The notes below the pieces were generated by a model. It searched no databases and was not told the DNA's origin. It saw only the letters and a list, made by a program, of their open reading frames with translations. Position numbers and translations under genes: made by a program. A stretch of DNA of 64,000 nt, from assembly GCA_913061055.1 (NCBI GenBank), contig CAJXVA010000006.1, forward strand, positions 1 to 64,000. The letters are read 5' to 3'. Each line of letters begins with the position of its first letter. Within the stretch, counting starts at the first letter, position 1. Shown here piece by piece: positions 4,842-39,515 of this stretch. The stretch is from an uncultured Pseudomonadota bacterium. GTDB taxonomy: Bacteria > Myxococcota_A > Polyangia > Nannocystales > Nannocystaceae.

Positions 4842-6014
4842 CTAGGCGCCGTCTTCGTCGAAAAACACGGCATCCACAAACGCCTGCGGCTCGAAGTCGC
4901 GAAGGTCTTCGATCCCTTCGCCGATTCCGATGTGGCGGATCGGGACGCCGAGCTCATCACAGATCCCAAGGACGACACCTCCCTTTGCGGTGCCGTCGAG
5001 CTTGGTGACCACCAGGCCGGTGAAGTCCATCGTCTCCTTGAACAGCTTGGCCTGTGCCAGCGCGTTCTGGCCGATGGTGGCGTCGAGCACGAGGAAGGTG
5101 TCGTGGGGCCCGAGCCCGTCGGGAGCATCCGGCACGCCCGACCGGACGGCCTTCGCAGCCGCACGCCCGACCTTCTGGAGTTCGTCCATCAGCTCTTTGC
5201 GGGTGTGTAGCCGGCCCGCGGTATCGCAGAGCACGACGTCGTAGCCGCCGGCGCGGCCTTTCTCGATGCCCTCGAAGATGACCGAACTGGGGTCGGCTTT
5301 ATCGGCGCCATGGTGAAGGTCGCAACCGACCCGCTCCGCCCAGACGCCAAGCTGCTCGACCGCTGCGGCGCGGAAGGTGTCGGCGGCGACGAGCAAGACC
5401 TTGCGACCTTCGGCGGCGTGCCGTGCTGCGAGCTTGCCCAGCGTGGTGGTCTTGCCGACTCCGTTCACGCCGATCATCAGCAGGACGTACGGGGCGGGGT
5501 CTGGGGCGAAGTCTTGCGCCGGCGCCTGAACATCCACGATCTCCAGCGCAGCGCTCCGAATCACCCCCCACACGGCGTCGGCGTCGGCGACATCCTCCCG
5601 GTCCAAGACGTCGCTGACTCGGTCCATCAGCTTCTGCGCGGTGGCGGTGCCGATGTCCGATGTGAACAGCACCTCTTCCACGTTGTCGCGCAGGGCATCG
5701 TCCACCGTGGGTTTGCCGCGGAAGAGCGTGGCGAGTTTGGCGACGAACCCACCGCGGGTCTTGGCCAGACCCTCGCGGTAGCGCGCTGCGATCTTGTCCT
5801 GATCACGGGGGGCCTTGGGGCGCGCGACCGGTTCAGGCAGGGCTTGGGGGCCGTCCTCCTCAGGAGCGTCTTCCGCATCTTCGTCGGCCCCCGGCGCGGG
5901 GGGCAGGGAGAGGTCGACGGTGCCGGAGAGCGCGGGGTCGCGCCGACGGAGGATGACGAACCCGGCGGCCGCGACGACGGCCACGAGTAGGGCAATGAGC
6001 AGCAAGGGATCCAT
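4842..6014 (-). CDS. ftsY: signal recognition particle receptor FtsY
   Basis: GVNGVGKTTTLGKLA, DTAGRLHT, TKLDGTAKGG GTPase motifs; N-terminal TM helix MDPLLLIALLVAVVAAAGFVI. Confidence 0.96.
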   Translation of the reverse strand: MDPLLLIALLVAVVAAAGFVILRRRDPALSGTVDLSLPPAPGADEDAEDAPEEDGPQALPEPVARPKAPRDQDKIAARYREGLAKTRGGFVAKLATLFRGKPTVDDALRDNVEEVLFTSDIGTATAQKLMDRVSDVLDREDVADADAVWGVIRSAALEIVDVQAPAQDFAPDPAPYVLLMIGVNGVGKTTTLGKLAARHAAEGRKVLLVAADTFRAAAVEQLGVWAERVGCDLHHGADKADPSSVIFEGIEKGRAGGYDVVLCDTAGRLHTRKELMDELQKVGRAAAKAVRSGVPDAPDGLGPHDTFLVLDATIGQNALAQAKLFKETMDFTGLVVTKLDGTAKGGVVLGICDELGVPIRHIGIGEGIEDLRDFEPQAFVDAVFFDEDGA

Positions 6015-6068
6015 GAGGCGGCGGTGCGCGCAGCTTCGCCGCGTCGCACCCCGCTCGCAAGGGGTTGG

Positions 6069-6220
6069 GATCGCACGGTGAGATCTGCGATCAGATCCCC
6101 CGGGCGGTCGGAATTCGATCTCCCAGCTCCGGGTCGCCGACACCAGCCGATCTCCGGATCTCGCCGCAGAGGTGATCTGCGTGGCGATCTCGCGAGATCC
6201 CGGGGATCGCGGCCGAGATC
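6069..6220. repeat. cluster of 12 GATC sites within palindromic GAGATC/GATCTC and GATCCC/GGGATC motifs
   Basis: GATC at 6069,6082,6089,6094,6117,6149,6157,6174,6186,6196,6205,6217; perfect palindrome GATCTCGCGAGATC at 6186-6199. Confidence 0.9.
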
Positions 6221-6286: not shown

Positions 6287-9200
6287 ATGCGTTTGAAGAA
6301 GGTCGAAGTTCAGGGCTTCAAGTCGTTCGCGGACCGCCAGGTGATCCTCGTGGACGATCACGTCACGGGCGTCATCGGGCCCAACGGTTGCGGCAAGTCC
6401 AACATCGTTGATGCGGTCCGCTGGGCCATGGGCGAACAGAGCGCCAAGCATCTGCGGGGCACCGGCATGTCCGATGTGATCTTCGCCGGCTGCAGCACGC
6501 GAGGCCCCGGCGGCATGGCAGAGGTCACCCTCACGTTCGAGAACAACGGGGATGACCACCTCGCGCACTTCGACGCGCGGGATATCGCGATCACCCGGCG
6601 ACTGTTCGCCGACGGCACAAGCGAATACCTCATCAACAAGGTCCCAGCCCGCTTGCGTGACATCACGGAGCTGCTGATGGGGACCGGCGCGGGTACCAAG
6701 GGCTACTCGATCATCGCCCAGGGCCAGGTCGGGCGGATCGTCAACTCCAAACCCGAAGAGCGTCGCCACATCATCGACGAAGCCGCGGGCATCACGCGAT
6801 TCAAGGCCCAGAAAGCAGCCGCGCAGCGGAAGATGGACGCCACGCGTCAGAACCTGCTGCGGACCTCCGATGTCATCGCCGAACTCGAGGCTCGACTCGG
6901 AACGCTGCGACGTCAGGCGCAGAAGGCAGAACGCTACAAGCGCTACAAGACCGAGCTGCGCGACCTCGACCTGTGCTCCGCCGCCCACAAGTACCTCGAA
7001 TTGGGCAGCACCGGCGCCGTCCTCGAAGGTCGGCGCGGAAACCTCGACGTCGAGACGGGCGACATCCGCGAATCTCTGGAGGCCCGCGAGTCCCAGATGG
7101 AAGGGATGCACAAAGAACTGGTCGGGGTCGAGGGACAGCTCTCCGACCACCAGCAGGCCTCCTACGACCTGGACAACCGGGTGCGGTTGCTCGAGGCCGA
7201 AAACGAGTACCGGCAGCGAGAGCGCGAGGGATTGGCCCGCAGCGGTACCGAGGCACGGGCCGAACTCGAGGCTGCGACTCGGACCCTCGAAGGGCTCGAC
7301 GGCGAGCTCGATGCGACGAAAGGCGAGCGCACGGCACTGCGCTCCGGTGAGGACAGCGAGCCTGCCCAGGCTGCGGTCGACCGCCTGGAGGTCGAAGCCC
7401 GCGATGCCGAGCGCGTGCTGGCACAGACCCGCGGCCGGATCGAATCGGCCAAGGTCCAAGCCGGCGAGCGGCGCTCCGCCCTCGCGGGTGCGCAGGCGCG
7501 GCACCAGTCACACCTCGAAGCCAAGGATGCCGCGACGGGGCGCCTCACGGAGCTGCAGACCGCGGCACAGGGACAGCGGGAGGCCGTGACCGGTGCGACC
7601 GAGCTGCACGCCCGCGCCGCAACGGCGGCGGACGCTGCCGCCGAGCTGCTCGAGTCGTTGGCAACCCGGCGCGGTGAACTCGACCGCGCTCGGATCAGCC
7701 TGCGCGAGCAGGTGGCGGCGGCCGAAGTCGAGTTGGATACCAAGCGGGCCGAGGTTCATCGCCACCGGTCCAGGCTGCAGTCTCTCGAAGAGATTCAGAA
7801 CCGCTACCGCGGGTGCGACAGCGGCGTGCAGCTGGTGATGGAACACCGGGCCGAGCTCGCGCCCGAGCTACACACGGATGGCAGCGTCAGCGGCCAGGAC
7901 ACACCAGGGGCGTCGCAGGCGGTCTACGGCATCTTCGCCGACTACGTGCACGCGCCAGAGCACCTCGAGACTGCGGTCAGCGCTGTGCTCGGGGACCGCC
8001 TCGAGGGCGTGGTCGTCGACGGTCCGCAGATCGGTGCGCGAGGGGTCGAGCTGCTCAAGCGCGAGCAGGAAGGCCGGACGACGTTTGTCCCCAAACATGG
8101 CCGCTCGCTCGCCGAGATTGCGCCTGAGGATGCGGGGACCATCGTGGACTTGCAGCCGGGCGTCCCTCTGGGATGGCACCGCCCCGACGAGAGCGCCATC
8201 ATCAGTGGCCCCACCGGGGAGAGCCCGTTCGAGGTGCTGGACCTCTCCGACGAGAGCGACGGACCGGGTGCCTCGCAAGAGGGGCCGCCGGCACCGTTGC
8301 CGCTCACCGAACAGGCCGGTGTGCTCGGCCGCCTCGCCGACCTCGTCGAGGTCAGCGGCGACTTGGGTCCCTTGGGCGGCGCGCTGCTCGGCGACACCGT
8401 GGTGGTCGAAAACCTCGAGCGCGCGCTCGCGTTGTGGGAAGCCGGACTGACCGGGAAGACCACGCTCGTCACCCTCGAGGGCGACCGGGTGGAGCCTACC
8501 GGCGTCGTCGTTGGCGGTTCTCCGACCGCGCTCAACGCCGCGCTGCTCCAGCAGAAACGCGAGATTCGCGAACTCCAGGAGATCCTCGCCTCGCTCGATG
8601 AGAGCTTCGAGTCCGCCCGTGGCCGGCACTTGGCCCTGGCCCAAGAACTCGCCTCCGTCGAGGCGGAGCGGGAGCAATCCGAGACGCATGTCCTCGAGGC
8701 CGAGACCGCACGGGTCCAGGCCGAAGCCGAGCGCACGCAGCTCGCGTCCGAGGTGCAGCGGCTGGGAGAAGAGGTCGAGGCGAAGACCGCTCTGGCCGAC
8801 GCGCTGCGCCGCGAGATCGACCAGCGTTCGCTGGAGATCGAGCAGCTCACCGAGTCGATCCGCTCCGGTCAAAATGCGGGTCGTCGAGCTCGAGGCCGAG
8901 GCTTCGACCGGCGAGGCGTCCCTACAAAGCCTGGCGGAGGAGCGCGACCGGTTGTCCGCCGCGCTGACCGAGGCGAAGGTCTCGCTGGCCAAGTGGCAGC
9001 AACAAAGCGATGCCCTCGATGCGACCCTCGAGCGGCTCGCGAGGCAATCCGATGCCGAGCGCCAGCGGATCGGCCGGCTCGAAGAAACCGCCGCGGCGTC
9101 CGAACGCCGGGTGGCCGAGTTGGACGCCGCCAGCGAGTCGGCAACCACCGAGCGGACCGAGCTACTCGAGAAGCGCACGGCGGCAACCGAGACGATGCAC

Positions 9201-10097
9201 CAGACTCGCGAGCGGTTCGAAGGCCTGCGGGCGCGGATCGACGAACTGTCGACCTCGATGAAGACGTTGCGGGGCGACCTCGACGAGCGTCGCACCAAGG
9301 TGGCCGAGGTGGAGCTGGGGCTGCAAGAGATCAACCTCGAGCGCCAGCACCTGCTCGCCGACGTTCGCGACCGGTTCGACCTGCTCCTGCCCGAAATCCT
9401 CATCGACTATCACGACCGTCCGTTGGCCGGCCGCCCCGAGCGGGAACGTCAGAAGGAACTCAAGCGCATCCTGTCCCGGATGGGTGAGGTCAACCTGACC
9501 GCGATCGACGAGTTTGAAGAGGTCTCGAGTCGCTTCGAGTATCTGACCCACCAGCGCGACGATCTCGAGCTGGCGATCAACCAGCTCCAAGAGGCGATCG
9601 ACAAGATCAACCGGACGACGAAGGAGCTGTTCAAGACCACGTTCGATGCGGTCAACGAGCGGTTCACGCAGCTGTTCCCTCGGTTGTTCGGGGGGGGCAG
9701 CGCCCACCTGAAGATGACCGACCCCGCCGATCTCCTGGGGACCGGCGTGGAGATCGAGGCGCGGCCTCCGGGCAAGCAGCCGCGGACCTTGGCGTTGCTC
9801 TCCGGCGGCGAGCAGGCACTGACCGCGGTCAGTTTGGTGTTCGCGATCTTCCTGATCAAGCCCAGCCCGTTTTGCATCCTGGACGAGGTCGACGCCCCGC
9901 TCGACGATGCGAACGTCGGGCGCTTCATCAGCCTGGTGCGCGAGCTGGCCCAGACCACGCAGTTCATCTTCATCACCCACAACAAGGTGTCGATGGAAGG
10001 AGCCGACCGGCTCTATGGGGTCACGATGGAGCAGCGCGGGGTTTCGAAGCTGGTCTCGGTCAACCTGCGCAAGGCCGTCGAACTCGCCTACAACTAG
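6287..10097 (+). CDS. smc: chromosome segregation protein SMC; reading frame shifts once near 8870-8876
   Basis: Walker A GPNGCGKSNIVDAVRWAMGEQSAKHLRG in ORF 6287..; signature LLSGGEQALTAVSLVFAIF and Walker B FCILDEVDAPLDDANVGRF in ORF ..10097; continuous coiled coil if one base is skipped in CAAAATG. Confidence 0.93.
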
Positions 10098-38111: not shown

Positions 38112-39515
38112 GTGAGCACGTCCGACGACCAAAAACCGCCATCGAACGATGGCGGGAGCGAAGACGATCGGGTCGAGCACTCGGGCGAGCGGGCAGACAT
38201 GTCTACCCAGGGGTCCACAATCGGTCCGTCTGGGCCACCGCCCGCCGATCCGTCCGGGCCGGACCTCGCGGCGAGCCCCGCGTCGGTACCCGAGCCCCCG
38301 GGCAGCGAGTCGGCCGACGAGTTGGCCGACGACGATGCTGGGGGCGACGAGTCGACGGTCGAGGCGTCCCCGGTCGACGCATCGTCGGCCGACTCTGCGT
38401 CGGCTGCACCCGTCACACCGACCGGACCCGAACAGCCTGCGACGCGCACAGACCCCGGAGATGCTGGAACGGGCGAGCCGGTACAGGAGCCGCGCGCCGA
38501 GCCCGAAGGCCAGACCGAGGCGTCGCCGAAGGGGGACACAAGCTCGAGCCCGGAGCCCTCGGCCAACCCGCTGACTTCGATGTTGGGGTCGGTCAACGAG
38601 GCACGCTCGTGGCTGCTCGAGCTCCCCGACTTCGAGGGTCCGCTGGACCTGCTGCTGCACCTGGTTCGCCGACACGAACTCGACATCCTCGATATCCCGA
38701 TCTCGTTCGTGACCGAGAAGTACCTGGAGTACCTCGCGTTCATGCAAGCCCTCGATTTGGAGGTTGCCGGGGACTACCTGGTCATGGCGGCCACGCTCGC
38801 GTACCTCAAGAGCCGCGAACTCGTTCCCACAGAGCCGACCGAGGTCAGCGATGAGGGCCAAAGCGACGACGAGGGGCCCGACCCCCGCGAGGAGCTGATC
38901 GCGCGGCTGCTCGAGTATCAGAAGTACCGTGCGGCGGCGAGCGACCTCGATGGGCTCCCGATTCAGGGGCGCGACGTGTTCAGCCGGGGAGGGCGTATCG
39001 AGCTGCCGCCTGTCGACCCTGGGCTTGCTCCGCTCACGCTGTTCCGCCTCGCCGAGGCCTACAACCGCGTGTTGGACCGCGCGCGGATCCACAAGTCCCA
39101 CGATGTCGTGTTGGAGACCGTGTCCGTGGCGCAGCGGATGAACCAGCTCACCTCGATGCTCATTGAGCAGGAGCGGGTGGAGTTTGAGGGGCTGTTTCTC
39201 GGTCGCAGCTGGAACAGTGAATCCGAGCTGCGCTCGATGCTCGTCGTGACCCTGATGTCCGTGCTGGAGCTGACCAAGCTCGGGGTCATCTTCGTGCATC
39301 AGGACACGGCCAACGGGGCCATCGTGATCGAGCGCAAGGCGACCCCCGAAGAGGCCAAACAGGCCATTGCGGACTACGACGAGAACATCAGCTTTGGGAA
39401 GGTCAAACCTGGGGTTGCGGAAGCGTCCGCTTCGGGTGAGGCTGCGTCCTCGTCCGACGACCCGCAGGCCCCCGAGGCTCCCGAGTCGGACGCCGAGCCC
39501 GACAGCGATGTCTGA
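38112..39515 (+). CDS. scpA: segregation and condensation protein A with ~165-aa disordered N-terminal extension
   Basis: LPDFEGPLDLLLHLVRRHELDILDIPISFVTEKYLEYL...LAYLKSRELVP. Confidence 0.94.
   Translation: MSTSDDQKPPSNDGGSEDDRVEHSGERADMSTQGSTIGPSGPPPADPSGPDLAASPASVPEPPGSESADELADDDAGGDESTVEASPVDASSADSASAAPVTPTGPEQPATRTDPGDAGTGEPVQEPRAEPEGQTEASPKGDTSSSPEPSANPLTSMLGSVNEARSWLLELPDFEGPLDLLLHLVRRHELDILDIPISFVTEKYLEYLAFMQALDLEVAGDYLVMAATLAYLKSRELVPTEPTEVSDEGQSDDEGPDPREELIARLLEYQKYRAAASDLDGLPIQGRDVFSRGGRIELPPVDPGLAPLTLFRLAEAYNRVLDRARIHKSHDVVLETVSVAQRMNQLTSMLIEQERVEFEGLFLGRSWNSESELRSMLVVTLMSVLELTKLGVIFVHQDTANGAIVIERKATPEEAKQAIADYDENISFGKVKPGVAEASASGEAASSSDDPQAPEAPESDAEPDSDV

Follow-up and report, generated by a model that had tools for sequence, protein, structure and literature searches.

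Why does the gene for the bacterial SMC protein appear in two reading frames in a draft genome of the Nannocystaceae? The question is raised by a stretch of 64,000 nucleotides, here called the window, in which an earlier note had recognized the two halves of smc one base out of register. Four readings have to be weighed: an error in the record, a genuine recent mutation, programmed frameshifting and a protein made naturally in two pieces. The structure of the break, the state of the gene in related genomes and the pattern of substitution in both halves bear on the choice.

Two reading frames at the smc locus

The frame that opens at ATG 6287 ends at a stop at 9485–9487 and encodes 1066 amino acids. 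The +1 frame is free of stops across 8451–10097, and TTG 8511 is merely the earliest possible start within it. The features of the locus and the partner gene of smc are as follows.

6287..8868, plus strand: N-terminal part of smc, comprising the head with Walker A, the first coiled coil, the hinge and the start of the second coiled coil (SMC_N, residues 3–133; SMC_hinge, best stretch 545–603; TIGR02168 SMC_prok_B, 540.8 bits)
8863..8882, plus strand: frame transition with one surplus base, exact position ambiguous (alignment, codon statistics, deletion scores)
8869..9487, plus strand: non-coding, out-of-frame tail of the ORF from 6287 (codon statistics end at 8861; substitutions relative to the sister genome follow the SMC frame)
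8874..10097, plus strand: C-terminal part of smc, comprising the remainder of the second coiled coil, the signature motif, Walker B and the H-loop (SMC_N profile positions 112–219; TIGR02168, 445 bits)
38661..39329, plus strand: scpA, the SMC partner, intact (PF02616, 107.3 bits, stop-free)

The profile matches bear out the division of domains proposed in the earlier note, with Walker A, first coiled coil and hinge in one half and second coiled coil, signature and Walker B in the other. Positions 1–587 of the TIGR02168 profile are found in the N-terminal half and positions 786–1181 in the C-terminal half. By codon statistics computed independently of homology, the switch falls at 8861–8868, the first frame being coding to 8861 and the second from 8868. 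Alignment of the window smc to that of a sister genome reveals a net surplus of one base at about 8869. The displacement of the halves by +1 is confirmed by the ORFs, the codon statistics and this alignment together. As had been anticipated, loss of a single base repairs the gene: deletion near 8873 yields one stop-free SMC of 1269 amino acids, with a predicted junction peptide of SGQMRVVELEAEAS or its alternatives. Beyond the break, residues 862–1066 of the first frame are an ordinary shifted reading of high-GC DNA.

The exact position of the surplus base is less sharply defined. The earlier note had assigned a single +1 shift to CAAAATG at 8870–8876, and this text is indeed present. The attribution to its A4 run is not unique. 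Scored against the sister protein, the gene reaches 5189 when 8869/8870 or 8876 is removed and 5188 when any one of 8871–8874 is. With scores so nearly equal, an extra base in the A4 run is possible, not established.

The split gene is an ordinary SMC_prok_B gene in the draft genome of a myxobacterium related to Nannocystis. Named protein relatives include Nannocystis species, Paraliomyxa miuraensis and many draft genomes of Myxococcota/Polyangia. The source assembly is a draft of 10.65 Mb in 913 contigs and is 89% complete. The scpA gene at 38661–39329 is the only ScpA found, and it shares the window with smc. A second SMC was considered as a replacement and rejected, as the further SMC_N matches that pass the cut-off in this genome belong to RecF and RecN. 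The ftsY gene lies head to head with smc on the minus strand at 4842–6143. An ftsY homologue stands directly upstream of smc in 18 of 21 named loci examined.

The gene in relatives and its substitution pattern

Comparison of the smc frame with relatives, which the earlier note had recommended, was carried out at two levels. The sister, one genome of the same genus, has an uninterrupted SMC frame of 1274 codons. Its product is 82% identical to the window SMC over residues 1–1269, and the A4 run is absent at the corresponding site. The wider sample drew on 129 further genomes of the class in which the C-terminal half had a match. The frame is open for at least 1181 amino acids in 112 of these. 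In 12 the gene is truncated by contig ends (10 judged by the contig limits or earlier records, the other two by inference from coordinates close to a contig start). The remaining five copies are internally split (G065, G075, G093, G109 and G116), or 5/117 when those cut by contig ends are left out. Their breaks fall near residues 225, 313, 335 and 715, and G109 is broken twice, at 186 and 640. A break at residue 862 was sought in these five genes, and none has one. N runs occur at a break in G075 and G109, as assembly gaps would give.

Sequence comparison with the sister shows purifying selection on both halves of smc, at a dN/dS of about 0.19 for the N-terminal half and about 0.10 for the C-terminal half. 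In the overlap, substitutions relative to the sister number 26, 18 and 89 at first, second and third codon positions of the SMC frame, so that third positions dominate. Low dN/dS together with this third-position bias implies that the break is either recent or not real.

Origin of the surplus base

We infer, with a probability of about three in four, that the surplus base is a sequencing or assembly error in a fragmented draft. The proposed sequence of events is simple. (i) The smc gene, normally uninterrupted, is broken in the record by one extra base near 8869–8876. (ii) This base would have arisen during sequencing or assembly of the fragmented genome. (iii) The living organism would make one SMC of about 1269 residues, which would act with ScpA. 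Because the sister and nearly all relatives carry an intact smc, such a slip is the most likely origin, or at most a fresh mutation. Unbroken SMC is the rule in the sister and the class, and the split copies occur singly, here and there, in fragmented drafts, a distribution that error fits best. A large survey of frame transitions in prokaryotes likewise expects singleton frameshifts validated by homology to be sequencing errors and not genuine indels (PMC3711429). The earlier note had also put sequence error first, and with unbroken SMC in sister and class and no support for recoding it is still the best fit.

Several observations weigh against error. The A4 run is short. Among about 39 ORFs common to the sister, smc carries the only intragenic break. 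Ab initio scanning finds only one or two frameshift-like places in 464 kb, at a sensitivity of 33/132 planted indels (25%). A codon scan of the sister with its own model gave 20 frameshift-like transitions in 489 kb, against two in 464 kb of the window genome. With a sensitivity of only 25% and so many calls in the sister, the ab initio rate cannot decide the matter. Three other candidate intragenic frameshifts in the window were rejected: two precede the true start, and the third is an antisense ORF. The window copy also alters the near-invariant residues E144A, R275H and K1176Q, and these too count against error.

A genuine one-base insertion that occurred recently in this strain is the leading alternative, although unlikely. 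The gene would then be either lost or hypomorphic, and spontaneous frameshifting at a low level might rescue it. The site, a short homopolymer, is compatible with such an event. At sites identical across four close outgroups, the window smc has 11 private changes and the sister smc five; ftsY shows the opposite pattern, with one and five. Among the changes in smc, K1176Q (CAG, 9813–9815) turns the signature into LSGGEQ, where all 18 other aligned SMCs have LSGGEK. D1169A and I1184V adjoin this signature change. The private changes may hint, weakly at most, at relaxed constraint. Against this, relative-rate tests show no consistent acceleration, with p<0.05 for only one of seven outgroups, and the low dN/dS of both halves does not suggest a gene released from selection. 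Viability is a further consideration. Escherichia coli offers a precedent, as it survives a +1-nt frameshift in the essential gene rpoB with 5% intrinsic suppression (PMC7022156). In Myxococcus xanthus, however, SMC is described as essential at 32 °C (PMC10313047), and no other SMC that might take over was found in the window genome. The specific case of a real, strain-specific frameshift that the organism tolerates, either by making some full-length SMC through spontaneous +1 slippage or by living free of SMC, is very improbable.

Programmed +1 frameshifting would fuse the halves by design, and it would account for purifying selection on both and for the long open overlap. It is nevertheless extremely improbable, since the sister lacks the site and none of the relatives in the class has its break there. 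Neither a stop codon nor a slippery heptamer nor any recognizable +1 signal is present at 8863–8882, in accord with the earlier failure to see a canonical heptamer. Shuffled sequences fold as well as the 100 nt downstream of the shift (z = –0.46). Conservation of the site, and a slippery site or stimulatory structure, are hallmarks of programmed frameshifting, and the window smc has neither. In the literature searched, none was found that links SMC with programmed frameshifting or recoding; nothing useful was found on smc frameshifts in Nannocystis or on indel errors in draft genomes.

A natural two-piece SMC, with the C-terminal half translated separately from the in-frame ATG 8874 at the junction, deserves equally little weight: no Shine–Dalgarno sequence precedes 8874, as had been noted before; the N-terminal frame reads on to a stop about 610 bases 3' of it, an overlap that makes stop–start handover by termination–reinitiation coupling implausible; the N-terminal product would carry 205 out-of-frame residues; and a split at this position is found in no relative in the class.

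Comparison with known systems

For the split smc, new biology is not the likely reading; a sequencing or assembly slip most likely explains it. The split copies elsewhere in the class urge caution, as their positions are unshared and two coincide with N runs. Scattered in this way, they indicate that a lone split housekeeping gene in a draft should first be treated as a quality flag and only then as biology. Should the base prove real, the locus would exemplify tolerance of a frameshift by an important gene.

The reconstructed protein shares the plan of bacterial SMC in the Smc–ScpAB condensin: head, coiled coil, hinge, coiled coil and head, with Walker A, signature and Walker B. An intact ScpA is encoded within the same genome, as in that system. 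The features that define SMC_prok_B, ATPase motifs towards the N- and C-terminal ends and a hinge separating them, are all present. One difference from TIGR02168 proteins is that the frame is broken once, at residue 862: the record has two frames where the sister has the single unbroken one that the family requires. The other is the LSGGEQ signature. The closest parallel to the break itself is the singleton class of the GeneTack survey (PMC3711429). There, as here, a one-base break validated by homology interrupts a conserved gene and is not shared with relatives, and the window smc shows no material difference from that class.
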